64,000 nucleotides of DNA, from contig NZ_CP016757.1 in assembly GCF_001701045.1 (NCBI RefSeq), forward strand, positions 1,419,501 to 1,483,500, in the 5' to 3' direction. The translations under genes and the position numbers were made by a program. Under the pieces are notes generated by a model. That model was not told the origin of the DNA and made no database searches. It saw only the letters and a list, made by a program, of their open reading frames with translations. Each line of letters starts with the position of its first letter. The stretch's first letter is position 1. This DNA comes from Cloacibacillus porcorum. Lineage in GTDB: Bacteria > Synergistota > Synergistia > Synergistales > Synergistaceae. Shown piece after piece: positions 812-63,971 of this stretch.

Positions 812-1773
812 TGAAAGAGGTGCTGATAATCTCCACCGGCGGCACCATCGTCTCAGTCGACCATGGAAATGGCGCGGTGCCGGATTCAGATGCCGCTCTC
901 GGCATTCTTCAAAGGGGGGGGGAGTTCCTCCGCGAAAAAGGATATTCTTACAGTGTGGAGGTTGTTTTTGGCGAGGCAGGATGCGACAGCTCCGACATCT
1001 CTCCCGCTGAATGGCTGACGCTTACGCAGAGGGTAAACGAAGCGGTCCTGCGCGGGGTAAAAAAGATTCTCATAATCCATGGGACCGATACGATGGCCTA
1101 TACCGCCGCCTGGCTTTCGCTCACAGCCGACCCGGACGCCGCGGTGGTGCTCACCGGCAGCCAGCGGACGCCTGGGGCTCCCGATTTTGACGGAGAATCC
1201 AACCTCCACGGAGCGGCAAGGCTTCTCTGCGGCGTGAAGCGCGGCGTATTCATCCACTTTGACGGCCGGGATTACGAGGGGGCCTTTGTACATAAGGAGG
1301 ACGCCGAGGCGCTCTCCGCCTATGTATCTACCGGATACGGCGCACTGCCGCGAAACGGGATATACCGCGCCCTCGATGGTAAAGAGACTGAATGGCGCGC
1401 CGCCGCAGCAGGGCTGTCGCTTGTCACGCTGCATCCCGCGGTCCTGCCGCGCTTTGATCTTTGTAAGATACTTATCCTCGCTGGATACGGCGCGGGGAAT
1501 ATGCCGCAGAGGCTGCGCCTGCAGCTGGCGGAAAGTTTTCCGGAGGAAAGCCGCAGACCGCTCATCATCGCGGCCAGTTCGTGCGCCCGCGGCCGAAAAA
1601 ACCCCGCCTTTTACGGCGGCGTCGGCATCGCGGAGCTGACAAAGGAAAGTTTTTCCGTTTTTAGTCAGGGAAGCTATTCCCTTGAGTTCCTGATTGCATT
1701 ATCATATCTTTCATTATTAGTTTCACCGGAAGAGCCGGAAAAAATATTGCAGTTATATTTGGAAAAATTTTAA
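811..1773 (+). CDS. L-asparaginase, type I-like (cytoplasmic)
   Basis: This 320-residue protein should hydrolyse asparagine to aspartate and ammonia. The sequence has both family signatures: STGGTI near residue 8 with the nucleophilic threonine, and HGTDTMAYTA near residue 93 with the second catalytic Thr-Asp pair. TGSQRTP follows. No signal peptide is visible, so it should be cytoplasmic. The ATG overlaps the upstream stop and has GGAGG about 13 bases before it. A longer frame upstream from base 496 only shadows the previous gene. It fits an amino-acid-fermenting lifestyle together with the glutaminase at 10.5 kb. The substrate could also include glutamine. Confidence 0.88.
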   Translation: MKEVLIISTGGTIVSVDHGNGAVPDSDAALGILQRGGEFLREKGYSYSVEVVFGEAGCDSSDISPAEWLTLTQRVNEAVLRGVKKILIIHGTDTMAYTAAWLSLTADPDAAVVLTGSQRTPGAPDFDGESNLHGAARLLCGVKRGVFIHFDGRDYEGAFVHKEDAEALSAYVSTGYGALPRNGIYRALDGKETEWRAAAAGLSLVTLHPAVLPRFDLCKILILAGYGAGNMPQRLRLQLAESFPEESRRPLIIAASSCARGRKNPAFYGGVGIAELTKESFSVFSQGSYSLEFLIALSYLSLLVSPEEPEKILQLYLEKF

Positions 1774-4024: not shown

Positions 4025-7000
4025 TTACCGGAAGAATTTCCTGATCCTGATGATAAACGGCAGCAGCAACGCCGCGCCCACATATACTCCTGAATTACAG
4101 CCACTTCCGCTTTTTCCATCCTCTTTTGACGGATCTTCGTTGGGGTTCTTTATCTCCACTATATATGATGCGTGGACCCCGGAGGCGTCGTTTGCGGCGG
4201 CGGTGATAATGGCAAGCCCGTATCCTCTGGCCGTCACACTGCCGTCCGAGGCGGCCTCCGCGACCTCTGGCTTGCTGCTGGACCACGAAAGGCTTTTCAC
4301 GGTGGCGTTTTCCGGTTCGACCGCCGCCTCTATACTGAGCGTCTCGTTCAGTTTCAGGTTAAACGGTCCAGTATTAGAGAATGTGATTTTTTCCACCGGT
4401 ACGGCCGGCCTTCTTACGGTGACCGTGTAGGAGGCGCTTTTACCGCTCTCGGAGTCCGTCACCGTTATTTCACAGCTTCCCTCCAGCAGGAAGGTAGTAA
4501 GCGTTCCATCTGCCGCGTCCACCGCGGCGATATCTTCCCTGGCGCTCCGCCATGAAAGTGACACATTGGCGGAGGAGGGTAAGACTGAGGGGGTGAGTCC
4601 TTCCGCTGTGGTCTCAGTACCCAGCTCAAGGGACGGAGGATCTCCCGCGTTGAGGAATACGATGCTATCCGCTTTGCCGCCCGCCTTTTTTACCACCGTG
4701 ACGTCGCACGACGAGGTATAGGTATCACCGGCTTCTGTGGTTATTGAGGCCTCTATCACGGTTCTGCCGCCGGCGACTGCGGTCACCGTGCCGTCCGCCG
4801 CGACCTCCGCGATGTCGGTGCTCGTGGAGGACCAGACGACCTTTCCATAGGCACTGGAGGGGGAGAATTCCACCGAAAGAGGATATGTTTCTCCCTCGGT
4901 TATCTCCGCTGATACCGGCGTAACCCTGATGCCGTTCGGCACCGTGGCGTCGTACGAGCCGTCTTTGCCGCATGATATCGTTCCGCTCACATAATTTCCG
5001 TTTAGCAGGGGATTGGAGAAAGACAGCGAGCTGCCCTGCTTCACCATGATGTTGATCTTGTCGTTTCCCTGCGTTATCAGCTGCGGCGCGCCGGAGGAGT
5101 CCGCCGTCGAGGCGTCTATCATCGCCCCGTCGTAAAGAGAGACGAGAGCGCCCCGCGCCAGCAGAAGCGAATCAGAGACGGTCAGTATGCAATCCTGTAC
5201 CAGCAGTGTGCCGCCCTCCTCCACGGAGAGGGAATACAAATCGGTGTCGCTATCCACCGTGAATACCTCGCCCCTCTTTATCACATAGGCGGAGGTGACG
5301 GTGAACGTCTTTTCCGCGCTGACGACATCCGAAGTACCGGCTGGGCAGAGCGTCAGCGTTATCGTGCACTCTCCGCGTCCTCCGTCTCCGCCTGAGAGGG
5401 CGGTCAAGATGCCGTTTTCATCCACGTCCGCAATATTCTTGTTGGATCTCTTCCATTCCGTCTTTGTGACCGTCGCTCCCGGAGGGGTGACGTCATAACT
5501 CAAAGCCAGCGACACCCTGTCGTTCGGTCCGGTTATCTTCAGATTTTCCGACGCGCCTGCGGGGAGTACGATATTGGCCCTGACCTTTGCGTCATAATTG
5601 TAGATGGCCTCTATATCCCAGCGTTCGCCCCATTTAAGATCGCGGCTTATGACATTGCCCTCCGCTCCGTTCAGTTTTAACTTATAATATTCGGGAATGT
5701 CAAAGGTCACTGAATAGAGCCCGTCCTTTTCCGGTGTGTAAGTATGGGAGCCGCTGCCGCTCTCCGCCAGGTCTCCCGAGGCGTCGCTGATGCTCCAGCG
5801 GGCGTCGGCGGGAGCGACGTCTCCCGATACGGTGATGTTTATAGCGGGGCTGTTGACCTCCCTCACGGCGAAGGCGAGGGAAAGATTATATACGCCGTCG
5901 TTTGCGCCGTCCTGCACCAGATAATAGTTTCTGTCGCGTACCGTATTATCGCCGTCGTTTTTGATATCCATCTTCGTGAGCCACTTGACGCCGCTCTTTT
6001 TGTCCGCGCCGATATCGCCGGAAACGCCTCCGGGATGGTCGAAGAGCAAAATCCGCGTCGACACCAGATAACAGTCGCCGGACTTGCTGACCTCCGCGTA
6101 CTTAGCCGTATCTCCTCCGGCCGCGTCGCCGAGGCTGCGGGCGTGGAGATAATTTCCGCCGGCGTCTTCACTTACGACCACAAACAGCGGGACATTTCGC
6201 AGGAAACTCTCGGTGAGATTCCCCTCGTCGATATTGGCGCTAAGCTCCTGCGGGATATCGGCTGACGATATAGTGAAATTTGCCTCGATAGGCAGATAAT
6301 CGCCGCTCGTGACCTCACTGCCGTGATTGTTTTTGAACGTCTCCGCCAGCATGCGCCAGAACTTGACGAAAATGCCGCCGTCGGAGCCTGTGTTATTCGA
6401 TGCGGAGGTGTTTTTCAGCGCGATCAGCTTCACCCTGTCCTTTGAAGCCGGTTCGATATCCCAGTAACGGGCGATCGCCTCCGCGATATCGCCGCTGGCG
6501 GCAAACTCCGTCACTTCGATATCCATGCTGTCTGCGTGTATCGGCTTTATAGAGGAGAGTTTGTTTTCGTCAAAGCCCACCGGCAGGGTGCCATTATCCT
6601 TCATCGCCGTGAAGGCGTCATAGATGAGGAAATCCTCCAATGAATTTTCTTTGATATCCAGTACGCCGGAATGGTCGGCGTCCGTCCTGTTTTCCTCCGG
6701 CACGACGACGGGGCCGTCGTCAGCCACCCGCCAGAGATACTGCGAGCCGAAATCGGAGAGCGACCTTTTCAGCACGCCGGGTCCGCTGTAGGTAAAGCCG
6801 CCGTCGCTTGCGGAGGAGGCCGCCGCGTAGATATGTCCGCCGATTGGCGTGCCCTCGATGGCAAGCTCAGGATTGCCGGTCACTTTGCCTTTAACTACCA
6901 GCAGCTTGTCGTTAGGCAGAGTTATTTTGCCGCTTCCGGAAAGGTCCTTATTTGGCTGGGCGTCGTTTTTGAGGTGCAGCGAAGCTCCCTCCGCGACGTC

Positions 7001-9855
7001 CAGATAATCGCAGGTGAATGGTGTATAAGAGCTTTCAATAAATGTCATGTCGGCGGATTTTTCTATATAGATGTTGTCGCAGACGTAGGCGGTTATGATG
7101 CCGGAGATATTTTTTGCCGTCAGCGTTTTTTCGCCCGAGATCGCCGTGTTGGCGGGCGGGGTGGTGGGAGGGTTGGAAAGGGGCTGAAAATAACAAAGTC
7201 CGTTGACGACCGCGTCATCCAGTACCAGTGCCGCGCCGCCATTTACCTTCGCGCTTGACGTAGAGGTCTTCGCATAGCCGTATATATTTATTCTAGATGA
7301 AGATCCCTCTAATCTCTTGAAATTATTGCCTTGGAATTCAAGACGAACGCCGCCTGTATCGGCGGTTGAATTGTTTCCATAGACACGTCCGGAGGGAGAA
7401 CATGTACTGCCGATATTTATATCCCCAGACGAAGAGATAAATATAGATGAGGCGGTGCCGTTGATATTGGCGTTAGAAGTGTCTCCATTTACATATCCGG
7501 ACCCGTTGTATGACGTGATTGTACCGGACTCCATCGTCGTGGTCACATTGCCGCGAACCGCAGCGTCTGAAGAACCGGTGCTTACATATCCGGCGCCGTA
7601 GTATGACTTGATCGTACCGGATTTTATCGTTGTGCTCACGTTGCCTCCCGCCGCCGAAGGATTGCCGTCGAGATCGAATCCCACGGTAGCTTTGCTGTTG
7701 GCTACACTAGCTCGTCCCGCGGCGTAAAGGCCGTTCCATGTCCCGTCCGTACCATCAACAACCGTCGTTATGCTGCCGCCAACGATACAGCTTCTAGCAG
7801 CGTAACCGCCGGCGCCTGTGTAACCGCCGCCGACAAAAGACGCAAGTTTCGCGTTTTTTCCTATGTGTGTCTTGATATCGCCGCCGATAAAGATGGTACC
7901 GTCAAGAACATATCCGCCTGAGAAAAACCAGGAGCAGGAGAGCCCGTCGCCGATAGTTATTTTGAGGTCGTCGCTGATTTTTATAGAGGCTTCGCTGCTG
8001 CCTTTGGTCTGACCAGTTCCGTAGAAATAGCCGCTGCTGCTGGTCCCGTCAAGGTGAAAATCATTCCCAATATCAATGCGGATGTTTCTGACGTTCAATT
8101 TTCCCTTAACGTAGCCAGCTCCGCAAAAAGGATTTATTGTGGACATCCTGTCGCCTGCGGTAATAGATATATCTCCGGATATATTAACCGAGCTATTTTC
8201 ATTGTATATGTTAACGCCAGTTATTCCGTAACAGGCAAAATCGTCGCCGATCTTTATCCTGACGTCGCCGCCGATATTTACAATGCCCTTTGATGATGAC
8301 TTTTCGATGTCCGCACAGCCGATAATAGAGGAAGATTGATTAGGCTCCGGATCCAGCATGGAACAACCATTTCCGATATTGACATCGATGTCTCCGGATA
8401 TATTTGCCTCGCCGCCGCCCGAGGATATTTTTACGCCGCCGTTGATTCTCGCGTTGTTGTGTTTACTTGCCGCGCCGTCGTGGAGATTGACCGTGATATT
8501 GCCGCCGATGTTGATTTTTCCGCCGTCGATAGTCTCTCCGCCGCCGACGACGCTGGTGACGTATGTCGTGCCGGTGGTTATTTTGTGAATATCCACCGTT
8601 ATGTCGCCGGAGATCTCCCCCGTATGAGCCGGTCCATAGGCATAAGGGCCGCCGTTGATGCCGAATCCGAGGCTGTTGTCCACGCATCTGTTAATGTCCA
8701 GATGTACGTTCCCGATCACCCTTGATACCGCGCCGCCGTTTCTGTTCCAGTCGTCGCCGCTTATGCCAGTATACACATATCCGCCTCCGCGGATACCGTC
8801 TATGCGGTTTTTGTTTCTTGTATCGGCAAAATCAGCGCTTGCCACTTCGATGTCGATGTTTCCGATGATCTCCTGTACGGCGTCGCCGGAGGCCGCGGAA
8901 TGGTATATATCAGGCCGTGAAACCATGCCGCCGCCGAAGATTCGGACAACGTCGGCGTTAGTCTCTCCGGCGAATGATTTTTTACCGGTCAGGATTTTTA
9001 CGTCGCCGTACTCTCTGAAGGTTCCTACTGAGTTCACGACTTTGCCGCCGCCAAATATGCGGGGACTGCTGGATCGCATGTATCCGGACCGGTCGGTATC
9101 TCCGCCCTCAAGGTTGATTGTTACCGGTATCGGGTTTGTCTCCGTTCCGATGTTTGAGTTATAACCGCCGCCGAAGATATAACCAAGATTACCCGTCTCC
9201 GTGAGGCTAATTTTGATCGCCGAACTGCCCTCGGAGGTCATGTCGGCGGAGTCGCATCCGCCGTATATCACGGCGCTCTTTCCTTTGACCGTAATATCGA
9301 TGTTTTCTCCGTCTTTTAGGATTAGGTCTCTAGCGTGGGAGCCGCCATATAGAGTGCCGTCGAAGTAGACTTTTTCACCGATCGTAATGGGGATGCCGTT
9401 GGCGTACATATTGAGCGATGCATCGCCGCTTGACGTGCTGATTTTGCAGTCGCCGGAGGCCGACTCGATTGAAAGTGATGTAAGTCCTCTGTCCGTTGGC
9501 AAGTTGATGTCGTTGCTGTCGGACATTAAACTATCCCCCGAAAGAATGACCGTCAGGTCGCCGATGTCGCCTGATGAAACTCTGTCAAGGTGTTTCATCG
9601 CGCCTCTGAATGTATCAAACGGGTCGCTGTCTGTTCCGGAACCTTTATCGTCGCTTCCGTCACCGCTGCCGGAATATTGCACGTAGACGGTGGTCTGAGT
9701 TGGAGTGGCTGCTGCGAAGCTATGCAGTAAGACTGATGAAGCTAAAATAAATAGTAGAAGCGGTAGGATTAAATAAACTTTGCTGTATCTTTCTGGGGGG
9801 GGGCAATTCGAGTTGATTTTTGTGGTGCGTCATGAGATTTAGCTAGACCAGGCAT
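4025..9855 (-). CDS. giant repeat-rich Synergist-CTERM surface protein, start out of frame at a poly-C tract
   Basis: The continuous reading frame runs from 9829 to 4025. The first 850 or so residues after the leader are repeats of the type 'ISGDI.V.IG', as expected of a solenoid-like beta fold (inference). The C-terminal 350 residues hold three Ig-like BIG2-type domains (for example VVWSSTSTDIAEV and LSWSSSKPEVAE). It ends with SGCNSG, a hydrophobic helix and RIRKFFR, the Synergist-CTERM sorting signal. A signal peptide (YLILPLLLFILASS...FAAA) is encoded in this frame at about 9713-9787, but the frame has no start codon before it. The ATG with a good Shine-Dalgarno (CTCCT at 9865-9869 on the plus strand; ATG 9855-9853) enters frame only if the nine-C run at 9795-9803 has ten or seven C. 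A GTG at 9682 would give a protein without a signal peptide. This may be phase variation, a mutation, or a sequencing error. Confidence 0.85.
9795..9803 (-). repeat. nine-base C homopolymer in the 5' coding region of the giant surface protein
   Basis: The plus strand shows nine consecutive G. On the coding strand this is nine C between the start codon and the signal peptide. With nine C, translation from 9855 gives 28 residues and stops. Ten or seven C would join the start to the signal peptide and the full protein. A second ATG at 9833 has no Shine-Dalgarno and would need eight. Confidence 0.85.
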
Positions 9856-9899
9856 AATAAAACTCTCCTCTTTAAGTATTGGGGTATTTTATGAATCCA

Positions 9900-9928
9900 A
9901 TAATACGCTCCTAAATTATCTTTTGCAA
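9900..9928 (-). promoter_or_regulatory. sigma-70-type promoter of the giant surface-protein gene
   Basis: On the minus strand TTGCAA (9928-9923) and TATTAT (9905-9900) are separated by 17 bases. About 40 bases further lies the AGGAG that precedes the ATG at 9855. The placement supports that ATG as the real start. Confidence 0.6.
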
Positions 9929-51573: not shown

Positions 51574-51637
51574 GTCAATTAATTACCTATGCTAAATTCA
51601 GCGATGAGCGTTGCTGTGCTCATTATCACTTATTTGT

Positions 51638-52951
51638 TCAGACGCGCCTTCTCAAGAAGAGCGGCATCAGTGCCAGAAGAGCTATCGCTCCCCAGTCGCC
51701 GTTACATCCGCCGCCACCGCCGCCGTCTCCCAACGGAGTGTCCGGTTCGACCGGCGTAATGGTTCCCGTCGGGCTTACCGCTGTATAAGCGGAGATATTG
51801 CCGCTGAGGGCGTTGCTTCCGAACTCGGTCCAGTTTGCACCGTCGTAGCGCCAGAGGCTGTAGCCGACGCCTGCCCAAAGATAATTTGTACTCTCGTCAT
51901 ATGCCAGTCCCAGGCGATAGCCGTAATCACCTGTGAAATCCCTCAGCAGCTTACCGATATCGCCTTTACTCAGCTTTTCCAGCGTCGTCTCATAGATGCG
52001 GATGCTGTATCCGGCGGTGTAGTCCTCGCCCGAAGTCCATTTGGCGGCCTGTATATATACCTTGTCTCCGACGAAGACCACGGCGTCAAACATATGCTTA
52101 AAGGTTGGGTCGACAACGTTCATCTCTCCCGCGGTTATGAGGCTGGTGACCTCCATAGTATTGAGGTCAGCCATCTCTATGCATGATTCGGGATTCCATT
52201 CGTCTCCAAACTTCTGTACACCGCCCAGCGTGGCGACGTACAACCTGCCCTCTTTCTGGGAATACGCGCCCGGTGTGAAGCCGTCGAGATTTTTGCCCTT
52301 CATCTCAACACGCGCCAGTTCGTTGAGCTCGGAGTCAAGCTTTACAAGCTGATTGAGCCGGTATGATCCCGATGTCGTGTTCCAGGGGTCGTTGCTGCCG
52401 GTAAAGATCGCGTACAAATTCCCGTTATAGGCGTTTAAGGCTTCCCCGTGTCCGTTATACTTCGAATCATTATGGTAATATTCGTATTTTTTATCCTGTT
52501 TATAGACGTCATTGGCTGTACTTACGCGGCTGACGATAGGGATATCGTAGGCTGTGGCGTAGAGGCTGCCTCCCATCTCCACCATCATTCTGGTATTATG
52601 GAGAGTGGTGGTAGCCTCGCGCAGCGGGGCTTTCCATGACGACTGCTGTGTCCACTGAGATTGTTCCCCGGGATTGTAAATGGAGATAACGTCGGTACCG
52701 TTTCCCGTGTAGAGCGTTATCGCGATCCTGAAATTACCGTCGGCGTTTTTAAAAGGGTATATCCCCTGTCCCGAGTTACCCCCCATGTTGCTGACGAGCG
52801 GTGAAACGGGATCTCCGGCGCCCTGGATGATTCCCAGCGCCGTATTGGAGTATCCATTGTCCTGCCTGGTAAAGAGCAGATCCGCCTGTGCCGGCAGCGA
52901 TGCGGCCAACAGGCTGAGGGCGAGCATCAGCATGATAAATTTTCTGCGCAT
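51638..52951 (-). CDS. propeller-like Synergist-CTERM surface protein
   Basis: The product has 437 residues. A signal peptide (FIMLMLALSLLAASLPAQA) starts the protein, and GGGGGCNGDWG plus a hydrophobic helix and RRR end it, the Synergist-CTERM signal. Between them several strands recur with the pattern G-x-LY/VY (NGNLYAIF, EGRLYVATL, GDKVYIQAA, TNYLWAGV), suggesting a beta-propeller, which is an inference. The ATG at 52951 has GAGGAGG nine bases before it. It lies 45 bases after the TonB receptor gene and is probably co-transcribed, so it may help bind the receptor's ligand at the cell surface. Confidence 0.75.
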   Translation of the reverse strand: MRRKFIMLMLALSLLAASLPAQADLLFTRQDNGYSNTALGIIQGAGDPVSPLVSNMGGNSGQGIYPFKNADGNFRIAITLYTGNGTDVISIYNPGEQSQWTQQSSWKAPLREATTTLHNTRMMVEMGGSLYATAYDIPIVSRVSTANDVYKQDKKYEYYHNDSKYNGHGEALNAYNGNLYAIFTGSNDPWNTTSGSYRLNQLVKLDSELNELARVEMKGKNLDGFTPGAYSQKEGRLYVATLGGVQKFGDEWNPESCIEMADLNTMEVTSLITAGEMNVVDPTFKHMFDAVVFVGDKVYIQAAKWTSGEDYTAGYSIRIYETTLEKLSKGDIGKLLRDFTGDYGYRLGLAYDESTNYLWAGVGYSLWRYDGANWTEFGSNALSGNISAYTAVSPTGTITPVEPDTPLGDGGGGGGCNGDWGAIALLALMPLFLRRRV

Positions 52952-52996
52952 GTGTATTTCCTCCTCTTCTTTCTTTATATAATGCAATTTGTCGTT

Positions 52997-54967
52997 CTAG
53001 AAGGTCCAGATCAGAGAGGCGTAAAAGGCCCTTCCCTGTATCGGATACCACAGAGTCCTCTCCGGCCCGTTGCCGGTGGCGAAGAGCATTACGTCGGGTC
53101 CGGCGTTGAAAACGTCGTCCACGCCGAAGACCAGCTTGAGGTCGTCGCGTAACTGCCAGCGCATGCCGAGCCCGAAGGTCGTCAGATTATCCCAGCCGAC
53201 CTCGCCCTGCATGTCGTAATAATTCTTCCCGATGTGGTGCAGCTCCGCGAAGATAGTACCCCTGTCGTCCTTCAATATCTTCCGGCTCACCCGCAGCAGC
53301 CCCTCCCACTCGGGACGGTTCGGCAGCGGGTCGTCATACATATATCCCGAAGTCTTATTCTTGGGATCCATCCATGTAGCGGAGATATAGAGGTCCCACT
53401 TGTCACGTTTCACCGTCGCTTCAAGTTCAACTCCCGATATCTCCGCGTTTCCGATATTCACATATTGTGCGTATCTTGGATTGACCATCAGATAATCTAT
53501 GAGGTTGTTCGATTTGCGGTAAAAATAGGTGAGCTCCGCTTTGACGCTGGCCTTGGAGAGCTCTCCCTCCCAGGCAATCCCCACGTCGTACTGCGTGCCG
53601 TCTTCCCACTTCAGCCCCTCGTTGGGGATGATGAAAGCGCCGTCGCCGTAAAGCTCGTAAAGATTGGGGGCGCGGTTATAGGTGCCGCCCGTGACCTTTG
53701 CCGTCCAGCCTTGGCCAAATTTCTTGGTCAGCGCCGCCCCCCAGGAAAACTCCGTGACCCCTTCGGCGGTGTTCCAGCGTATGATAGGCGTGAGCCAGAG
53801 ATCCCCGGTCCGGTTGAGGCTGATCGTGTCCTGTATCTGCCCGTTCCATGAATTGCGCGTATGACGCTCCCGTCCGCCGAAATTCTTCACGATATCTCCC
53901 GTCGTATGGAGCTCCTCGTTATAATAATTCCAGAGAAATTCGACGAGATGATTCTCCCCGAGTGGCAGCGAGCCGTCGACGGCGGCGCCGAAGCGCTTTG
54001 TCTCATACCGGTTATGCTGCTCGCCCCAGCCGCCGATCGTGTCTGAGGGATCGTCATAATCCTTAGTCTGATGCAAATACTCGAGCCTCAGGCCATAATC
54101 GAGATCGCCCATCCTGCCGCGTCGCGTCACGACCGTATTCCACTGGTCCGTCACCTGCGTCGCCCCGCGCACGCTGTCCGGCTTGTCCGCCCCTGGGGCA
54201 GAATAGGGCAGCTCGCGGTCGTTGCGCTTCCAGCCGCCCTCCACCTGCCACCTCTCACTGTTCCACTTGAGCAGGACGTTTGAATTCTTATAGCCGTTAT
54301 TCTGCCTCTCCGCCTTATAATCGTCGTCTGGAGTATAGGGAGTATTATTATCATTCCAATACTCGAAATCGCCGTCCGTGCGGTCGAAATTGACGGAGGC
54401 CATCAGCGCGCCCTCTCCCAGCGGCGTATTATAAGAGAGCCCGCCCGTGAGGCGTCCGAAAGAGCCGAGGCCGGCGGTCACCGAGCCGCCGGCCCTCTCG
54501 GGTTTTTGGGTGATAATATTGATGACGCCGCCCATAGAGGCGCCGCCGAAGCGCGCGGGGATATAACCGCGGTAGACCTCGATCCTCTCGACATTCTCCA
54601 CGGGAATAGTGGAAAGATCGACGGCGGCCTCGCTGCCGAGATTCATCAGCACGCCGTCGACATAGACGGAGACCTGTGAAGAGCTGCTGCCGCGCACGGA
54701 GGCGGTAGTATAGGCGCCGCGCCCCTTCGTTTCGATAATATGCAGCCCCGGCACCTGCTTGAGCAGTTCTGGGAGAGTCTTCTGCTCTCCCTTCATCTCC
54801 TGCGGTTTGATGACGGTGACGCTGCCGGGTGAAAGGAGCAGCTTATCCTCCACTTCGGCGTCGGTGGTGATCTTCTCCTCCGGCAGCCCTACGGTGTCAT
54901 CCGCCGCGGCCGCCACTCCCGCGCCAAGGCACAGACACAGCGCTGCGATAAAAAGGTATTTTTTCAT
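52997..54967 (-). CDS. TonB-dependent outer-membrane receptor
   Basis: The product has 656 residues. A signal peptide is followed by a plug domain (LPELLKQVPGLHI, GSSSSQVSVYVDGVLMN, VERIEVYRGYIPARFGGASMGGVINIIT) and a 22-strand-type barrel ending in the outer-membrane Phe (SLIWTF). It imports a scarce ligand with TonB energy. Similar length and plug are found in BtuB-like cobalamin, catecholate siderophore and heme receptors; the nearby cobalamin riboswitches hint at B12 but none directly precedes this gene. TonB, ExbB and ExbD are not in the window. Confidence 0.93.
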   Translation of the reverse strand: MKKYLFIAALCLCLGAGVAAAADDTVGLPEEKITTDAEVEDKLLLSPGSVTVIKPQEMKGEQKTLPELLKQVPGLHIIETKGRGAYTTASVRGSSSSQVSVYVDGVLMNLGSEAAVDLSTIPVENVERIEVYRGYIPARFGGASMGGVINIITQKPERAGGSVTAGLGSFGRLTGGLSYNTPLGEGALMASVNFDRTDGDFEYWNDNNTPYTPDDDYKAERQNNGYKNSNVLLKWNSERWQVEGGWKRNDRELPYSAPGADKPDSVRGATQVTDQWNTVVTRRGRMGDLDYGLRLEYLHQTKDYDDPSDTIGGWGEQHNRYETKRFGAAVDGSLPLGENHLVEFLWNYYNEELHTTGDIVKNFGGRERHTRNSWNGQIQDTISLNRTGDLWLTPIIRWNTAEGVTEFSWGAALTKKFGQGWTAKVTGGTYNRAPNLYELYGDGAFIIPNEGLKWEDGTQYDVGIAWEGELSKASVKAELTYFYRKSNNLIDYLMVNPRYAQYVNIGNAEISGVELEATVKRDKWDLYISATWMDPKNKTSGYMYDDPLPNRPEWEGLLRVSRKILKDDRGTIFAELHHIGKNYYDMQGEVGWDNLTTFGLGMRWQLRDDLKLVFGVDDVFNAGPDVMLFATGNGPERTLWYPIQGRAFYASLIWTF

Positions 54968-54994
54968 CTCTTCAGCCTTTCAGTCATAAGGCCG

Positions 54995-55020
54995 CCTCCG
55001 GCTCAAAAACAAGCCGGAGG
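54995..55020 (-). terminator. hairpin after the last GLUG gene
   Basis: CCTCCGGCT and its exact complement form a 9-bp stem with an eight-base A-rich loop, about 20 bases past the stop at 55040. It separates the GLUG block from the TonB receptor gene, whose promoter must be close by or which depends on read-through. Confidence 0.6.
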
Positions 55021-55039
55021 GGCTATGATTTGCTCCAAA

Positions 55040-57487
55040 TTATTTTAGGGATTTTTTCTTTAAGGTACGCGAAACAACTGGAATTGCCGCCAGCAGGATA
55101 ATTCCCGCGTATCCGGCGCCGTTACAGCCGCCGCCGGATGAGCCGCCAGTAGGGGCAGGAGAGCCTTCCGCAAGCTTGACGACGGCAATGGGATCGATGA
55201 TGCTGCGGTCCGCCGGATCCATATCGAAATTGCTGTTGTCCTGGATATAGAGCACCAGTTTGTATGGCTGCGCCGGGTCTATCTTATCCGTCGGCGCCAT
55301 CATCTTATCGTCCATAGTCTGCAGCGTGAAGCGCTTGTTGCCAAAGGCATCCTGATCCTCTGCGTAGGCAAAGAATTCGCCGGTACCATCGGGGCGTGTC
55401 TTGACGAGCGCGACCTTCTGCGGGGTGTCGGCCATGAGACGGTCTCCGCTGATAATTATGCCGGCGGCCGCGATCTTGCCCGCAGCGCTTACCTCAACAG
55501 AGAATAACGGCAGAGGAATTATCGCCGACACTTTAAGATTGTCTCTATCCTCCGCGTCTTTAACCGCCGCGCTCACCTTTTCGCTATTAAGATAAAGGAT
55601 TCCGTTTGAACCGACCCTGAAGGCAGAGACGTCGATACCGACTGCGGCGGCGATATCTTCTATGACCGCGCTCGTTGCTCCTATGGGTTTCACTGGGTCG
55701 ACATAATTGGGAACCGCATTGCCGGTTGGAATAAATCCAGATATCTCAACATCTGTCGCAGGAGCTCCGACTACCGTTATTGAGTCTGAAAATTTACCGT
55801 CAGCGGTCGTTGCCGTAAAGGTGTAGGCGTAATCCTTTTTATGCCCGGAGCGGAGGAGTATCGAAAGATTACCGTTTCCGGCATTTTTCATGATGACATC
55901 TTCCGACGATGCAGCTCCGCTGACAGCGGAGAGCGTCCAGACGACATCGCCGGCATCGGCGTCCGAAGGTCTTACAGAGGCTCCCAGAACCCGGGTCTCG
56001 CCCTCTTTCCACGCAGTGTTTGAACCGTAGGCCGTAATTCCCTCCACGGGAATCGCACTTGACGCGATTTTAAGAACGCCTTGAACAGAGGCCGCTGTCT
56101 CAAAGTTGGAGATATAGGGATCGGACGAGCCCGTGTGGCCCAGCAGACCTGAAACGTCGGCGGATATGGAGGCAAAGATATTCTTCGTCTCAGCGTGATC
56201 CTTTGCCTTCACGGTGAGCGTCGGCGTACCTTCTCCCTTTACAACCTCAAGCTTTGACGTATCAACGCTCCACGTATATTTGAGAGACGAGGCGTCGGCC
56301 GTAAGCGGGTATGCGGTGATATGGATATCGCGCGTTTCGCCGCTTTTGATGGTTTTAAGGTCATTGGTATCCATAATGACTGCCGTCACCGGAAGCTTGG
56401 CTGGGTCGGTGATGCGTCCTGTTATTCCGCTGCCGCCCCACGCGTATTCAGGCTGTTCCCTGTTTTGATAGAGCCAGTAGCAATTCTGGTAACCAAAACC
56501 AAAATTGCCAACTACGCCTCCGACATTTCCGGGAGAGGCAGAAACCTTTTGGGCGGCAGAGACGTTATCAGCGGTTATGATACTATTAAAACCACCGAAG
56601 ATGCCGCCCGCGTCCATCCCGGCGACTATTGAGGGGCTAAGCGCTACGTTATTCCGCACTTTTCCTTTGTACCAATGAGAGAATCCCACAATGCCGCCCG
56701 CGTACGAGAAAGATGCCGGCGTGGAAAAGACGCTTCCCAAAACTACGTTGTTACGGATAATGGCATAAGGGTTTTCGCTCGTCATATCATCGCCTTGCGG
56801 TCCGCCGTTGAGTCCCGCGATGCCGCCCGCGTAGCCCCTCTTGGAGCTCGTGGCCCGCACTTCGACGTCGGTGACGCAGTTCTCGATGAGTCCGTCCGCC
56901 CAGCCGGCAATGCCGCCCACGCCTTCGCACTCGGAGGCATTGACCTTTCCTTTCACGACAAGGTTTCTTATCTTACCGTCGATGGAAATATAGCCGAAAA
57001 GGCCTGCCGCCTCTGTCTGTTTTGAGTTATACAGCGGAACGTTTTCGCATGTTTCTATCTTCAGTCCGGAGATCGTATGGCCGCCGCCGTTGAAGCTGCC
57101 GTCGAAGCCCTCGTATTCTCTGGTCTGTGTCCATCCTGATGTTGTTGTATAGCTCAGATACCACCCTATAGGCGCCCATTCCCTGTCTTCAAGGTTTATG
57201 TCGCGTGTCAGGAGAATGTGTTTGTCCTTAAGGCTCACCTTTGTGACCCCCCATTGGCCGGAGGGAACATTGACCATCTTCGCTAGGCCAGCCAGCTCTT
57301 CGGGAGTGGAGATCAGAAATGGATTATCCACGCTCCCGCGCTCATTCTTATAATCGTCATACCATGAAGTATCGGGCGTCCACGAATCCGACGCGGCCAT
57401 CACCGAACCTGCGGACAGAATAATGATGAGCAGGGCCACCGCCGCGAGCGCGAAATGACGGCTGATTTTTTTAAGGGTATTATTCAT
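55040..57487 (-). CDS. GLUG-repeat Synergist-CTERM protein, type A, copy 2
   Basis: The product has 815 residues. After a signal peptide comes DSWTPDTSWYDDY and FLISTPEELAGLAKM, then GLUG-type repeats at about 130-330 (VGGIAGWADGLIENC, AGGIAGLNGG, AGGIVGFSHW, AGGIFGGFNS). A long region with Ig-like traits follows (VPVEGITAYG...VVWTLSA), then a conserved 100-residue block and GCNGAG plus a hydrophobic helix and KKK (Synergist-CTERM). Surface adhesion or matrix binding is inferred from the domain type. The ATG overlaps the end of the preceding type B gene by eight bases, with GGAGGC as ribosome site. The 3' part is about 97% identical in DNA to that of copy 1. Confidence 0.88.
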   Translation of the reverse strand: MNNTLKKISRHFALAAVALLIIILSAGSVMAASDSWTPDTSWYDDYKNERGSVDNPFLISTPEELAGLAKMVNVPSGQWGVTKVSLKDKHILLTRDINLEDREWAPIGWYLSYTTTSGWTQTREYEGFDGSFNGGGHTISGLKIETCENVPLYNSKQTEAAGLFGYISIDGKIRNLVVKGKVNASECEGVGGIAGWADGLIENCVTDVEVRATSSKRGYAGGIAGLNGGPQGDDMTSENPYAIIRNNVVLGSVFSTPASFSYAGGIVGFSHWYKGKVRNNVALSPSIVAGMDAGGIFGGFNSIITADNVSAAQKVSASPGNVGGVVGNFGFGYQNCYWLYQNREQPEYAWGGSGITGRITDPAKLPVTAVIMDTNDLKTIKSGETRDIHITAYPLTADASSLKYTWSVDTSKLEVVKGEGTPTLTVKAKDHAETKNIFASISADVSGLLGHTGSSDPYISNFETAASVQGVLKIASSAIPVEGITAYGSNTAWKEGETRVLGASVRPSDADAGDVVWTLSAVSGAASSEDVIMKNAGNGNLSILLRSGHKKDYAYTFTATTADGKFSDSITVVGAPATDVEISGFIPTGNAVPNYVDPVKPIGATSAVIEDIAAAVGIDVSAFRVGSNGILYLNSEKVSAAVKDAEDRDNLKVSAIIPLPLFSVEVSAAGKIAAAGIIISGDRLMADTPQKVALVKTRPDGTGEFFAYAEDQDAFGNKRFTLQTMDDKMMAPTDKIDPAQPYKLVLYIQDNSNFDMDPADRSIIDPIAVVKLAEGSPAPTGGSSGGGCNGAGYAGIILLAAIPVVSRTLKKKSLK
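55174..55405 (-). repeat. 232-bp near-identical patch shared by the two type A genes, copy 2
   Basis: It aligns without gaps to 59693-59924 with about eight differences. The flanking parts of the two genes are far more diverged. It encodes the block before the sorting signal (KTRPDGTGEFFAYAEDQDAF and onward). Confidence 0.88.
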
Positions 57488-59492
57488 GATTATTGCCTCC
57501 GTTCAAGGTGATCCGTTTTTTTAAAACGGCGGCAAGCGGAACAGCCACAAAGAGCGAAAGCCAGCCCCAGGCGCCTCCGTTGCAGCCGCCGGAACTGTGC
57601 GAACCGCCGTTAGGGGCTTTTTCCTTCGCCGCGTTGATGATGACGTCAGCTGAAAGTTCCGACCCGTCCACCGTATAGGCGGAAAGCAGATACTGAGCCC
57701 CCGGCACGTATTTGAGCAGGGTCGCCTTCAACTGTTTCGAACTGCCGACGTGCGTTAATTCTATGTCGTCGACCGCCGCCGCGTCGCCCGAGGTTACCTT
57801 AAGGTCCCAGCGTAAAACGGGATATGACACCTCTTCCTCTGGCAAGAGAGAGGCCGTTATGACCTTTGAATCGCCGGCGTCCGCCAGCGTGACAGACTCC
57901 GCGTCAAGCGCGAGAGAGGTGAGCATCACCTTGGTGACAGCGGCGTATGTCTTTGCCGTCCATGAATTTTCACCGAGAAAACCATTTGCCGAGGCCAGAA
58001 TGTCTGTGGTACCCGCTTTGACGCCCCTGACCAGCGCGCTTTCTCTGACAGCGAAAACTATCGAAGCGACGGCGCTATCGGCCGTTCCCCATGACCAGGC
58101 GAGGCCATTCGTTTTTCCGGCGACAGACGGGAAACACATCACCCTCTGAGAATAGCTTTTGTTCTCCAAAATCCGTACCGTAGGCTGAGATAGGAGCGAA
58201 ACGGGCATTAGCTCGGCGGCGTCGGCTACTTTCGTTACGCTGTAATTAAGCCTGTTATCGGGAATTACGGTTTGGGCCACATAGTCGTTTAAGGGAAGTC
58301 CCTCGCCCGCCAGCCACTCACATTGATACATCTTAGTATTGACAACATCCGGGATGAATCCGACTAAACTTCCCGCGTGGCCTGAGGCGGCGTCGATTTT
58401 CATTGTTGACGAACAGTGCTCTATATTGAGATCCATGTTATTATCTTTGACACCGACAATGCCGCCGGCGTTCACAAAGGCGTCTCCAGCCGCCGACGAC
58501 CTGATCTTTATGCTTCCCTGCGCCGAACATCCCACTATTGCCTGCCATTGAACGACTCCGGCTATCCCGCCGGCGTTATTCATATATTTGGCGCTGTTGA
58601 TGTTCACCGTGGGATACTGTCCGCCGATGACGTCAATGTCGCATGAGACGGCGCAATTCGTGAGAGCGGCCCCCGTGCCGGTGGTGCCGGCAATGCCCCC
58701 CGCGCTGACTGGGCCCACGGCCTCGGCGTTCTTTATCGAGCCGCTAAAAAAGCAGTTTTCTATCGGTTGGGCGGCATTTCCACAGAGGCCGCCCAAGCAG
58801 GTAACGGTAGTGTTTTTGTCGTTTCCCGAGTTATCGGTGGTTATATACGCCTCGGCGCTGCAGTTGCGAAGCACCATGGCGCCATATCCGGCTATCGCAC
58901 CGACATCTCCGTCGCCGTACCCCTTGACGCTGCCTTTAAAGGAACAGTTTTCTATCGAGCTGGTCGCGGCTGTTCCCTGTGCCCAGCCGGCGATGCCGCC
59001 GACGCTGTAACCCAGATAGTCTCTTCCCGCGATGGTTTCCGGAGCGACGGAGACATTTCCCGCGACGTTGAGGTTCCTGATATTTAAGGTGAGACCACCG
59101 TTGAGTTTGCCGAAGAATCCGATATAATCTCCGCCCGGCTCTCCGCATTTGACGGCGCCGAGGCCGCCTACGGTGTATCCCTGACCGTCAAACAATCCGG
59201 AGAATGTTTTTCCCGTTATTCCGATACCCGTCCACACCTTGCCGCTCAAGTCGATATCAGCGCCAATGCGCACGGTTTTGCCGGCAAAATTTTGCGTCCC
59301 GTCGTTGACGAGTTTCGCCAGTCCCGCGAGCTCCTCCGCCCTATTAATTGTAAAACTGACGTCGGCGGAGTTTGCCTCGTACCAACTGACGTCGGCGGAC
59401 TCTATCCAATCGGCCGCCCGCGCGCTGCCGGACGACAATAGAGATACAGCCGCTATCAGCGGTAAAATAAACAAAAAAACTTTTCTTGACAT
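57480..59492 (-). CDS. GLUG-repeat Synergist-CTERM protein, type B, copy 2
   Basis: The product has 670 residues. It has a signal peptide ending SGSARAADW, then SADVSWYEANSADVSFTINR and RAEELAGLAKLVNDGT. GLUG-type repeats at about 100-390 include VGGIAGWAQG, VGAIAGYGAM, LGGLCGNAAQ and AGGIAGTTGT. A bacterial Ig-like middle and SSGGCNGG plus a hydrophobic helix close the protein. It is the diverged twin of the 645-residue protein at 62034. GAGGAG precedes the ATG. Translation is coupled to the following type A gene by overlap. Surface location is well supported; the ligand is unknown. Confidence 0.88.
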   Translation of the reverse strand: MSRKVFLFILPLIAAVSLLSSGSARAADWIESADVSWYEANSADVSFTINRAEELAGLAKLVNDGTQNFAGKTVRIGADIDLSGKVWTGIGITGKTFSGLFDGQGYTVGGLGAVKCGEPGGDYIGFFGKLNGGLTLNIRNLNVAGNVSVAPETIAGRDYLGYSVGGIAGWAQGTAATSSIENCSFKGSVKGYGDGDVGAIAGYGAMVLRNCSAEAYITTDNSGNDKNTTVTCLGGLCGNAAQPIENCFFSGSIKNAEAVGPVSAGGIAGTTGTGAALTNCAVSCDIDVIGGQYPTVNINSAKYMNNAGGIAGVVQWQAIVGCSAQGSIKIRSSAAGDAFVNAGGIVGVKDNNMDLNIEHCSSTMKIDAASGHAGSLVGFIPDVVNTKMYQCEWLAGEGLPLNDYVAQTVIPDNRLNYSVTKVADAAELMPVSLLSQPTVRILENKSYSQRVMCFPSVAGKTNGLAWSWGTADSAVASIVFAVRESALVRGVKAGTTDILASANGFLGENSWTAKTYAAVTKVMLTSLALDAESVTLADAGDSKVITASLLPEEEVSYPVLRWDLKVTSGDAAAVDDIELTHVGSSKQLKATLLKYVPGAQYLLSAYTVDGSELSADVIINAAKEKAPNGGSHSSGGCNGGAWGWLSLFVAVPLAAVLKKRITLNGGNNHE
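59299..59441 (-). repeat. 143-bp near-identical patch shared by the two type B genes, copy 2
   Basis: It aligns without gaps to 63781-63923 with four differences. It encodes the end of the signal peptide and the start of the mature protein (SGSARAADWIESADVSWYE and onward). Confidence 0.88.
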
Positions 59493-59564
59493 TTTTCATT
59501 CTCCTCTTTTTATTTACTATGGAGCGGCGCCGTCTATATCCGAACCGGCACCGGCTCCGATAGA

Positions 59565-62021
59565 TTACTGCCTGAACTTCTTTTTTGGGGCACGCATAAA
59601 CAGGGGGATCACAGCCAACAGCATTATTCCGACAGCGCCAGCGTTGCATCCGCCGGACGAGCCTCCGGAGGGCGCCGGTGTCTCTTTCGCGAGCTTGACG
59701 ACGGCAATGGGATCGATGATGCTGCGGTCCTCCGGATCCATATCGAAATTGCTGTTGTCCTGGATATAGAGCACCAGTTTGTATGGCTGCGCCGGGTCTA
59801 TCTTATCCGTCGGCGCCATCGTCTTATCGTCCATAGTCTGCAACGTGAAGCGCTTGTTGCCGAAGGCATCCTGATCCTCCGCGTAGGCGAAGAATTCTCC
59901 GGTACCGTCGGGGCGTGTCTTGACAAGCTTGACCTCCTGCGGGGTGTAGGCTAGGAGCGCGTCTCCGCTGATGACGAGCGCCGTCACCGCTAGTTTGCCG
60001 GCCTGTGAGGTGGTCATCCTGAGAATCGGCAGCGGCTTGATCTGTGTCACCTCCACCTTGTCCAGCGAGGCGGCGTAGTCGACCGCGGCGCCGAGCACGG
60101 CGGAGTTCAGGTATACGATGCCCTTTGAATTGGTCCTGAAAACGGAGATGTCGACACCGCAGGCCGCCGCAATATCAACGAGCATATCCGAGGTCGCGCC
60201 GACGGCCTTAAGAGCTTCCGCGTAGGTCGGAACGACGGCTCCGAGGGGGATGACGCCGGAGATGTCCACATCCGTGACCGGCGCACCCGTAAGTGTGATG
60301 GAATCTTTGAGGCCGCCGTCCTTCGCCGTTACCGTAAAGGTGTATCCGTAGGCCTTCTCATGCCCCTTTCTCAGCGTGACTTCAAGCGTCCCGTCGTCTT
60401 TCTGGTTCAGTATCACGTCATCGGAGAGCGCTTCGCCGGAGAGCGCCGTAAGCGCCCATGTTACGCTCGTGTCGTCCGCGTCGGAGGGAACGACCGCGAC
60501 GCCCAGGCTTCTCGTTTCGCCCTCCTTAATATCCGAGGCGTCTCCGTAAGCAATCACGGATTCCACGGGGATACTTGCCGAGGCTACCTTTAAGGTCGCC
60601 TCCAGCGTCACCGAGGTGTCAAAGTTCGATATATACCTGTCCTTCGGCTGTCCGGAACCAGCGTCCGTATAGCCGAGAAGGCCTTTTACATCCGCGGAGA
60701 GCGCGGCATAGGATATATCTTCCGCCGCGGCGAGAGCTTTGACCCTGATTGTGTTCGTGCCCTGTCCACTTACTATCTGAAGTTTCGTCCCGTCCACGTG
60801 CCACGTATATTTGAGCCCGGAGGCATCGGCCTGCGTCGGGTAGGAGACGATATGTATCTCGCGTTCGTCGCCCGGCTTTATCGTGCCAAAGTCAGCGGCG
60901 TCGAATATCGCAGCGGCCACGGGCAGCTTGTTTTCATCCGTCACTCTGCCGTACTCATAATGCCCCATGGACGCGTTGCCGTTCAGGGGCTGATCATCCG
61001 TCATCTTCAGCCAGTAGCAGTTCTGGTAGTCGTATCCGTAGGCGCCGACGATGCCGGAGGCGTCAGCGGCTTTTACCTTCGCGGCCACGGAGACCGAGTT
61101 TGCCGTAATGTTGCTGTTGAAGCCGCCGAAAATACCGCCAGCGTCCATGCTGGCGATTATCGACTTGCAAAGAGCGACGCAGTTGCGCACCTCGCCGTGG
61201 TACCAGCTTGAGAAGCCGACGATACCGCCAGCGTAGGAGTAGCTGATTGGCGTGGAGCTTACATTACCGAAGACGACACAGTTGCGGATCATCGCCTTGA
61301 TCCCGTCTGTCACGGGGCCGGAGCCGTCGCCCTTCGGATTGCCGTTGAGTCCGGCGATGCCTCCGGCGTAGCCCCTCTTGGAGCTGGTGGCGAAGACGGA
61401 GACATCGGTGGCGCAGTTCTCGATGACGCCGTCGGCCCAGCCGGCTATACCGCCTACGTCCTCGCATTTTGAGGCGTTGACGCTTCCCTTGACTGCCAGG
61501 TTCTTTACAGTGCCCTCGTTGTCAAGGTAACCGAATAGCCCCGCCGTTTCGCTCTGAACGCTGTTATGCACGTAGAGATTTTCACAGGTTACGATCGAAA
61601 GGCCAGATATCGTATGGCCGCCGCCGTCGAAGGTGCCGTCAAAACCCTTGTAGTTCGGTATCTTGTTAAAGCCGCTCGTAACGATTTTATAGTCGATCTT
61701 CCACCCTATCGGCGCCCATTCCTTGCTCTGAAGGTCGATGTTGCGCGTAAGCAGTATATATTTACCCTTAAACAATACGCTGGGATTTAGCCAGTCGCCG
61801 ACCTTGTTGGTCAGCTGCGCGAGCCCGGCCAGCTCCTCGGGCGTCGAGATGAGGAAGGGTTTTTCCTTTGTGCCGCGCGTCGTCTTGTAGTCGTCATACC
61901 ACTTAGTGTCGACCGTCCACGAGTCGGCGAACGACATCGCGGCGAATATGAAGATCAGCAGGAACGCCGCCAGCGGCGCGGCGATTGCGCGTCTCATCGC
62001 GGAGAATGTTTTTTCGTTCAT
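59565..62021 (-). CDS. GLUG-repeat Synergist-CTERM protein, type A, copy 1
   Basis: The product has 818 residues and the same plan as the protein at 55040: signal peptide, SWTVDTKWYDDY, FLISTPEELAGLAQL, four main GLUG-type repeats (VGGIAGWADGVIENC and onward), Ig-like middle, conserved pre-sorting block, SSGGCNAG, helix and KKK. The ATG at 62021 has AGGAGGT seven bases upstream. That site overlaps the stop of the preceding type B gene, so the pair is translationally coupled. A GTG at 62030 lies within the ribosome site and is rejected as start. Confidence 0.88.
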   Translation of the reverse strand: MNEKTFSAMRRAIAAPLAAFLLIFIFAAMSFADSWTVDTKWYDDYKTTRGTKEKPFLISTPEELAGLAQLTNKVGDWLNPSVLFKGKYILLTRNIDLQSKEWAPIGWKIDYKIVTSGFNKIPNYKGFDGTFDGGGHTISGLSIVTCENLYVHNSVQSETAGLFGYLDNEGTVKNLAVKGSVNASKCEDVGGIAGWADGVIENCATDVSVFATSSKRGYAGGIAGLNGNPKGDGSGPVTDGIKAMIRNCVVFGNVSSTPISYSYAGGIVGFSSWYHGEVRNCVALCKSIIASMDAGGIFGGFNSNITANSVSVAAKVKAADASGIVGAYGYDYQNCYWLKMTDDQPLNGNASMGHYEYGRVTDENKLPVAAAIFDAADFGTIKPGDEREIHIVSYPTQADASGLKYTWHVDGTKLQIVSGQGTNTIRVKALAAAEDISYAALSADVKGLLGYTDAGSGQPKDRYISNFDTSVTLEATLKVASASIPVESVIAYGDASDIKEGETRSLGVAVVPSDADDTSVTWALTALSGEALSDDVILNQKDDGTLEVTLRKGHEKAYGYTFTVTAKDGGLKDSITLTGAPVTDVDISGVIPLGAVVPTYAEALKAVGATSDMLVDIAAACGVDISVFRTNSKGIVYLNSAVLGAAVDYAASLDKVEVTQIKPLPILRMTTSQAGKLAVTALVISGDALLAYTPQEVKLVKTRPDGTGEFFAYAEDQDAFGNKRFTLQTMDDKTMAPTDKIDPAQPYKLVLYIQDNSNFDMDPEDRSIIDPIAVVKLAKETPAPSGGSSGGCNAGAVGIMLLAVIPLFMRAPKKKFRQ
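59693..59924 (-). repeat. 232-bp near-identical patch shared by the two type A genes, copy 1
   Basis: It is the partner of 55174-55405, with a constant offset of 4,519 bp. Confidence 0.88.
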
Positions 62022-62033
62022 CTTTCGCACCTC

Positions 62034-63971
62034 CTATCCGCGGCGGCTGTGCCTGCCGCGCGTCGTCATAAACGCCGCCGGCAGCGCCAGCAGAAGCGCG
62101 AGGGATCCCACCGCCGAGCAGCCGCCCGAGCTTTCCGCCGCCGGGTCCGCCTTGGCCGTGACGGTCAAATAGGCCGATAGGTCTGTTCCGTCAACGGCTT
62201 TCGACGTAAGCTTATACTGAGCTCCTTCAACGAAATTCACGAGTGTTACCTTTACCCTGCGCGTAGATTCGATGTAAGTGATCTCAAGGTCGTCGTTCGT
62301 GGCAGCGTCGCCGGAGACCACTTCGTAGCTCCATTTCAGTTCCGGATATGATGCGCCGCTTTCGGGAGTGATGGAGGCCGTCACCTCTTCGCTCGCGCCG
62401 GCGCTGTTGAGGATCATCTCTTCAGCGCTGAGCACAAGCTTTCGCAGCGAAGAGAGCACGCTCAGCACCACCGCCTTCAGCGACCATGAATTTCCGCCGG
62501 GAAAGCCGGAGGCGCTGAGATAAAGTTCAGCAGTGCCGCTTTTTCTGCCCCTTATCACGGCCGTATTGCCGGAGGAGGAGGCCACCTTGAGGGCGGATTT
62601 ATTCGAGGTCCCCCAGGAAAACCCTAGTTCGCTCATGTTGCCGCAGCTGGTTGGGAAGACGAGAGCCTTTACTGTTGTGGGAATGTTTTCCGTAATTTTG
62701 TAAATAGGCGGCAATATCGCGGAGGCCGCGCGGAGGTTTTTCGCTTCGGTCACCTTGAGAGCTTGTTCGTCGGTGACGCCGTCGATATCGCCCACAGCCT
62801 TTTCCGCCTGGCCTACGCCGCCGAGCCATTCGCACCCCGTGAAAATGCCGATTGTTTTTCCACGCCCAACCATTCCTCCGGTCATCGCTGATGACGCTGA
62901 GATGGAAATGGCGGACGAACAGTATTCAAATGATATTATATCGGCATAACCCGCTACGCCGCCGATAAAAAGGCTCTTGCCCTCTGGAGTGGACGCCGTT
63001 ATCGTGCCCTCTCCGGTGCAGGCGGTGATCGTGTTCCAGCCCCATAGGTTTCCCGCAACTCCGCCAATCTGGGCGTTTTGCGCGGTCTTTATATTCATAT
63101 CACAGAAGCTCGCGCAGTTTGTCATCGAGCCGACGGTATGTATCAGCCCCGCCACGCCGCCGACATATGACGTACCGCTGGCCGAGGGAGCTGTGAGGAC
63201 AATCGAACCGGTAAATCCGCAGTTTTCGACGCCGCGCCCGGCTTCCCCCACTACACCTCCGACATACGCGTTGCTGGTTAGGGTAATGTCAGCTGACACA
63301 TAGCAATTAAGGAATCCACACCAGCTTATACTGGCTATCCCTCCGACATACCCTGGGGCGTCGGACGAGATCTTTCCGGTAAAGGAGCAGTTTTCAATCG
63401 TTTTGTTGATTGTTCCATTGGCGGTACTCTGCGTAGCGCCCAGCAGTCCGCCGATGTAGAAGTCAACGGCTCCGGCGTCTTTATCTGCCTGGGAGGGGCG
63501 TATATTTCCCTCGATATGCAGGTTTTTAAAGGCGGGATAGACAGCTTCGCAATAGCCAAAAAGACCAATATAACCAATATATGGAGTACCATATACAATT
63601 TCTGGAGATTTAATCTCGCAGAGTCCCTTCACCGTGTGTCCGCATCCGTCGAAAGTACCGCGAAAACAATGCAGAAGCTGGAAGCCTGTTCTGGTGCTGT
63701 GCCCGATGGCCGTCCACACCCTGCCGGAGAGGTCTATATCTTTCCCTAGCTTTACCGTCTTGCCCTCGAACATCTCCGTTCCGTCGTTGACGAGCTTCGC
63801 CAGTCCCGCGAGCTCCTCCGCCCTATTGATTGTAAAACTGACGTCGGCGGAGTTTGTCTCGTACCAACTGACGTCGGCGGACTCTATCCAATCGGCCGCC
63901 CGCGCGCTGCCGGACGATAATAGAAATGCTGCCATAAGCGCCAGACAGGTCATTATCTTTCTTTTACGCAT
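62034..63971 (-). CDS. GLUG-repeat Synergist-CTERM protein, type B, copy 1
   Basis: The product has 645 residues. Its signal peptide and mature N terminus are nearly identical to those of the protein at 57480. The GLUG region differs in number and sequence of repeats (IGGLLGATQ, VGGVVGEAGRGVENC, VGGVAGLIHT, IGGVAGNLWG, IGGVAGYADI, TGGMVGRGKT). It ends SSGGCSAVG, hydrophobic helix and basic tail. GGAAGAGGG precedes the ATG. It is the first gene of the visible block; only 29 bases of upstream sequence are in the window, so its promoter is not seen. Confidence 0.88.
   Translation of the reverse strand: MRKRKIMTCLALMAAFLLSSGSARAADWIESADVSWYETNSADVSFTINRAEELAGLAKLVNDGTEMFEGKTVKLGKDIDLSGRVWTAIGHSTRTGFQLLHCFRGTFDGCGHTVKGLCEIKSPEIVYGTPYIGYIGLFGYCEAVYPAFKNLHIEGNIRPSQADKDAGAVDFYIGGLLGATQSTANGTINKTIENCSFTGKISSDAPGYVGGIASISWCGFLNCYVSADITLTSNAYVGGVVGEAGRGVENCGFTGSIVLTAPSASGTSYVGGVAGLIHTVGSMTNCASFCDMNIKTAQNAQIGGVAGNLWGWNTITACTGEGTITASTPEGKSLFIGGVAGYADIISFEYCSSAISISASSAMTGGMVGRGKTIGIFTGCEWLGGVGQAEKAVGDIDGVTDEQALKVTEAKNLRAASAILPPIYKITENIPTTVKALVFPTSCGNMSELGFSWGTSNKSALKVASSSGNTAVIRGRKSGTAELYLSASGFPGGNSWSLKAVVLSVLSSLRKLVLSAEEMILNSAGASEEVTASITPESGASYPELKWSYEVVSGDAATNDDLEITYIESTRRVKVTLVNFVEGAQYKLTSKAVDGTDLSAYLTVTAKADPAAESSGGCSAVGSLALLLALPAAFMTTRGRHSRRG
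63781..63923 (-). repeat. 143-bp near-identical patch shared by the two type B genes, copy 1
   Basis: It is the partner of 59299-59441, with a constant offset of 4,482 bp. Confidence 0.88.

Follow-up and report, generated by a model that had tools for sequence, protein, structure and literature searches.

Results

A broken frame at a run of nine C

Multi-locus phase variation by slipped-strand mispairing is, with high confidence, the best explanation for a set of frame-shifting C/G runs at the starts of secreted-protein genes in Cloacibacillus porcorum and related Synergistota. The analysis started from a window of 64,000 nucleotides, the whole stretch of DNA examined (contig NZ_CP016757.1, positions 1,419,501 to 1,483,500), in which the following features of one large gene were located.

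9900..9928, minus strand: promoter-like TTGCAA (9928-9923), 17 nt, TATTAT (9905-9900), a consensus match only
9865..9870, minus strand: Shine-Dalgarno sequence GAGGAG
9853..9855, minus strand: primary start ATG, 52 nt ahead of the tract
9831..9833, minus strand: second ATG in the third frame, without a Shine-Dalgarno sequence, 30 nt ahead of the tract; possible weak start
9795..9803, minus strand: nine-C tract (G9 on the plus strand), the proposed slipped-strand switch
9707..9793, minus strand: signal peptide directly behind the tract (n-region, hydrophobic core, AAA end), assigned by hydropathy and by eye
4025..9855, minus strand: proposed phase-variable gene for a secreted surface protein of ~1,940 codons, its frame broken at the C run, with ATG and Shine-Dalgarno sequence ahead of the run and 1,922 open codons behind it
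4748..4933, minus strand: best-scoring copy of the bacterial Ig-like domain Big_2 (PF02368), E 1.8e-26
4037..4111, minus strand: Synerg-CTERM C-terminal sorting motif (TIGR04564), 24.3 bits against a cut-off of 22.5

Read along the minus strand, the locus passes from the promoter-like site through the Shine-Dalgarno sequence, ATG 9855, 17 codons, the nine C and the signal peptide to 1,922 open codons and a stop at 4025. The elements ahead of the run were all located as the first-pass annotation had described them; the promoter-like site matches the consensus at 9 of 12 positions, chance would give 0.9 such sites in the 500-bp region, and on its own the match would be weak evidence. With nine C, the frame of ATG 9855 stops within a few dozen codons at most and does not join the codons behind the run, as had been claimed. 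The frame behind the run opens with a clear signal peptide (ERYSKVYLILPLLLFILASSVLLHSFAAA), and the assertion that no ATG, GTG or TTG could start this frame ahead of the run was confirmed, the first being GTG 9682, behind the signal peptide. The accompanying frame arithmetic, by which ten or seven C would give one protein of about 1,940 residues, also holds. Disruption of the gene at other places, which the annotation had named as a refutation, was looked for, and apart from the tract the gene is intact. The tract is placed behind an SD-led ATG and ahead of the signal peptide, so that a change in its length alters the frame, and as read from its sequence the gene is OFF in the sequenced chromosome.

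The locus had been described as a possible ON/OFF switch, but the second ATG at 9833 had been overlooked; with it the gene has three frame classes (strong start, weak start and none), and a third, weak state is possible. If this ATG or a non-standard start allowed protein to be made in two or more of the classes, the run would tune the amount of protein rather than turn it on and off. ATG 9833 does open the third frame, and near-tract starts in the current frame are present in paralogues at genome positions 489109, 1194211 and 583808; however, none of these starts has a recognisable Shine-Dalgarno sequence, and at nine C the window gene is without any start in the needed frame. We regard tuning as unlikely, if less so than the other alternatives weighed below.

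The protein contains two Big_2 domains and ends in the Synerg-CTERM motif GCNSGVYVGAALLLPFIIRIRKFFR, which exceeded the TIGR04564 cut-off in the frame search (24.3 vs 22.5 bits) but reached 17.2 bits when the whole protein was scanned. The protein is very probably secreted and surface-anchored, and we infer an adhesin-like nature from the Big_2 Ig-like domains and repeats only. No match to an autotransporter barrel (PF03797 or TIGR01414) was obtained, indicating that the protein is not a type V autotransporter. A full orthologue was found neither in 20 relatives nor in a scan of genome contigs nor in IMG/VR; partial matches in the sister species are large proteins with 40-42% identity over residues 991-1363 (~370 residues), and a PDB sequence search returned a single match, to a short stretch of the Ig-like region.

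Twelve genes with the same leader arrangement

The arrangement at the window locus had been correctly recognised, but the genome-wide set to which it belongs had not: the locus is one of twelve. The genome of C. porcorum, a mucin-degrading pig-gut isolate (PMC3709534), is a single closed chromosome of 3,585,187 bp, in which runs were located by pattern search and those of at least 7 were then read in context. In twelve genes a Shine-Dalgarno sequence and start codon are followed, after 40-67 nt, by a run of 7-10 C/G with a signal peptide at or directly behind it (in one of the twelve the run sits inside the signal peptide). Their genome positions, sorted by the frame state read from the sequence, are as follows.

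ON (3 genes): 46715, 1191342, 1531456
OFF (9 genes): 489109, 525128, 544448, 583808, 1194211, 1429295 (window gene), 1896760, 2838792, 3251112

Eleven of the twelve carry the Synerg-CTERM motif, in some cases below the curated cut-off, and the domains found across the set are Big_2, GLUG, DUF6273, cadherin-like and the autotransporter barrel, the last in gene 544448, a type V autotransporter. In a thirteenth tract gene (genome 1632886) the end of an IS replaces the start region. A cluster of Synerg-CTERM genes at window positions 51600-62100 has no C runs at its gene starts, and it therefore appears that only part of the Synerg-CTERM class is switched.

That 9 of the 12 genes are out of frame, and that one GLUG-family member has an internal stop (genome 1781923-1782531), could be taken to mean that these are pseudogenes, with one-off frameshifts in genes being lost. 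Against this, the OFF genes that were read to their stop are intact over 587-1,922 codons behind the tract and their breaks are confined to it, pure runs of such length are in themselves far more frequent than chance would give, and the same families have in-frame members. Gene loss is thus a very improbable reading of the set.

Gene 46715 has an in-frame TGA between its run and its Synerg-CTERM motif. A TGA stands in frame at the same place (SPGG[GS]VY*AS) in two DUF6273/Synerg-CTERM paralogues (L031 6727-8800 and L197; genome 46715 and 3140534), with the frame open beyond it. The organism has 18 selenoproteins (PMC12013277), and this common TGA may either encode Sec or be a nonsense change present in both genes.

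Excess of long C/G runs in the chromosome

Runs of C/G number 23 at length 7, 7 at length 8 and 18 at length 9 or more (25 in total at 8 or more). The 18 runs of at least 9 compare with ~2.3 expected from the decay rate from length 7 (Poisson P ~6e-11), and at least 6 of them fall in the first ~75 nt of 46 Synerg-CTERM genes, a target of ~0.1% of the genome (binomial P ~1e-14). The window tract can accordingly be described as a candidate contingency locus, with a run beyond chance, a frame-altering position and a gene that is otherwise intact.

Homopolymers of 9 are prone to assembly or base-calling error and an individual length may be wrong by one, so that the true run at the window gene could be in frame and the gene simply ON. 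However, the reading frame is kept across runs of 8-9 in ordinary genes (G9 at window 914-922 in an asparaginase gene, and G8/C8 at genome 2106110, 2853688 and 3541512), and 16 of the 23 runs of 7 already lie within the longest available frame. Since ordinary genes have their runs in frame, a systematic fault with homopolymers is unlikely, and error would leave it unexplained that runs recur at one position in about twelve genes for secreted proteins, and in other genomes as well. We consider it improbable, if marginally less so than gene loss, that the frame break is an artefact.

Two further observations concern runs of this kind. The G9 at window 914-922 lies 103 nt into the asparaginase gene and may be a chance run or mark a metabolic phase-variable gene. 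In another genome (G006), 87 places match the run pattern, a number that may reflect base composition.

Runs in candidate promoters and beside insertion sequences

Three more runs occupy the spacer between a -35-like and a -10-like hexamer upstream of genes for secreted proteins, on a reading of the consensus only.

Genome 3085917: G10 promoter-spacer run, preceding a Synerg-CTERM gene
Genome 3033714: G9 promoter-spacer run, paralogue of 3085917; an IS now separates the run from the gene
Genome 3186049: G9 promoter-spacer run in a 17-nt spacer (TTGCCG/TAAAAT), preceding a bacterial alpha-2-macroglobulin

Promoter control by repeat length operates at opc. It is also described for nadA (PMC2791445). 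The three runs resemble these systems in lying between two promoter-like boxes; they differ in that promoter control is here suggested by consensus boxes only, and the window gene is not of the promoter type.

An IS3-like element of ~1.43 kb (left end TGCACTGCTAAACTAATCC) is present in 12 copies (L210-L221). Five of the 12 lie 23-96 bp from a run of at least 9 G, in one constant orientation, three of them at 67-70 bp (genome 3033714, 2314754, 3251112, 489109 and 1632886). This closeness looks far above chance and suggests that the element chooses targets near poly-G runs.

Poly-G runs of 9-11 also recur ahead of repeated phage-tail-fibre-like genes whose products end in VGRWK or IGRWK (L135 5743 and 6712; L141; L043 6739, minus strand). 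Near-identical copies in the sister species are one G apart (10 vs 11), which hints at tract slippage.

Tract length in paralogues and in other genera

Among the paralogues of the leader-tract genes the flanks of the tract have drifted apart, with identity mostly at 66-77% and at most 91%, and the run is still pure and variable in length. The lengths are 7, 7, 8, 9 and 9 in the GLUG group and 9, 9, 10 and 10 in the DUF6273 group, with 12 in the sister species. A family-wide search found the same leader arrangement in other Synergistaceae genera, here designated G055, G023 and G022; distant GLUG proteins of other phyla, returned by a second scan of genome contigs, were left out of the comparison. 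The ten paralogues in G055, of which two are in frame and eight out, have runs of 9-12; they share recent common ancestry and are not independent. Leader runs of C7, C9 and C11 are present in G023, and G022 has one C7 leader gene, in frame. A GLUG-family gene of G023 has (TCAC)12 between ATG and signal peptide, where its homologues have a C run, and is out of frame (L388, G023:C5:41900-43200).

Across genomes, the 26 genes have tract lengths of 7-12, with 6 in frame and 20 out, the offsets of the latter being split 12 vs 8. The proportion of ON genes does not differ from an expectation of one third (6 of 26, P 0.19). Because both offsets are mixed with in-frame members over the 26 genes, tract length appears random with respect to frame. 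These data also bear on programmed recoding, in which ribosome or RNA polymerase would slip on the C run and yield a fixed fraction of product from unchanged DNA. Transcriptional slippage can be favoured by homopolymers of at least 8, although it is best known on A/T runs (PMC3711429). Recoding would require a constant offset, whereas both offsets and in-frame members were found at lengths of 7-12, and one homologue has the tetranucleotide repeat in place of the C run. Of the explanations weighed here, recoding is the least probable.

At two loci of other genera (L392 and L382), a G10 lies beside or inside a type I restriction S subunit-like gene, and a C10 puts the signal peptide of a TonB-receptor-like gene out of frame (gene names assigned by eye).

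In the larger subgroup of G055, the leader, taken from the ATG as far as the signal-peptide cleavage site, is 94-100% identical, the upstream sequence mostly 80-85% and the starts of the mature proteins 57-91%. Since the leaders are more alike than the parts on either side, they appear to have been spread or made uniform through gene conversion; the alternative to such copying is strong constraint on the leader. We tentatively propose, as an idea with rather less than even chances, that a portable 'switch leader' of start region, C tract and signal peptide has been copied between Synergistaceae surface genes.

Discussion

The first-pass annotation had proposed homopolymer slippage at the window tract as a way to switch a surface antigen, and the excess of long runs, the intact gene, the eleven similar genes and the homologous runs of varied length lend this reading support. 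What the DNA shows plainly is the run and where it lies, a frame broken there with the rest of the gene intact, the same layout at other lengths in paralogues and other genera, and a mixture of frame states. Under phase variation, slipped-strand mispairing at replication would gain or lose a C at high frequency and bring the SD-led start into register with the signal peptide and mature protein or out of it, so that a clonal population would become a mix of ON and OFF cells, to which the second ATG may add a weak intermediate. The window gene would then be one of many loci that together form a phasome of secreted proteins, of the Synerg-CTERM and autotransporter kinds, in Cloacibacillus and its Synergistaceae relatives. 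From the patterns above we infer slippage as the source of the length differences, its rate, reversible switching, expression, surface exposure and selection for surface diversity. The benefit of switching may lie in evasion of IgA, phage or competitors, or in changed attachment to mucus.

Neisseria opa genes and the outer-membrane adhesins of Helicobacter pylori have repeats in the region that encodes the signal peptide. As in those systems, the repeat here lies between the start and the mature surface protein, many paralogues each have their own repeat, and the state would be set by frame; unlike them, the tracts are mostly mono-C, the proteins are unrelated and Synerg-CTERM-anchored, the phylum is another one, and switching is deduced from sequence. 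The phase variation of opa has been dated (PMC11868660). Homopolymeric G/C runs in many surface-related genes per genome are likewise shared with the G/C-tract phasomes of Campylobacter and Neisseria (PMC6321876, PMC7371114). In Campylobacter the tracts mostly belong to genes for the modification of surface glycans, whereas those described here are mostly in the leaders of Ig-like, GLUG and DUF6273 secreted proteins of a gut commensal. In the literature searched, no paper linked Cloacibacillus or Synergistes with phase variation. The mechanism is known; what appears to be unreported in that literature is its occurrence in this taxon, its extent in a single commensal genome (some twelve genes and, in addition, promoter runs) and its association with Synerg-CTERM proteins.

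The annotation of tract genes as broken or absent from a single isolate may mislead. If the portable leader is real, it would be one shared stochastic switching device for the whole surface proteome. A phasome of a dozen genes in a pig-gut commensal that degrades mucin, common to other Synergistaceae, offers a test case for resequencing and suggests that a harmless gut phylum shuffles its surface as some pathogens do.
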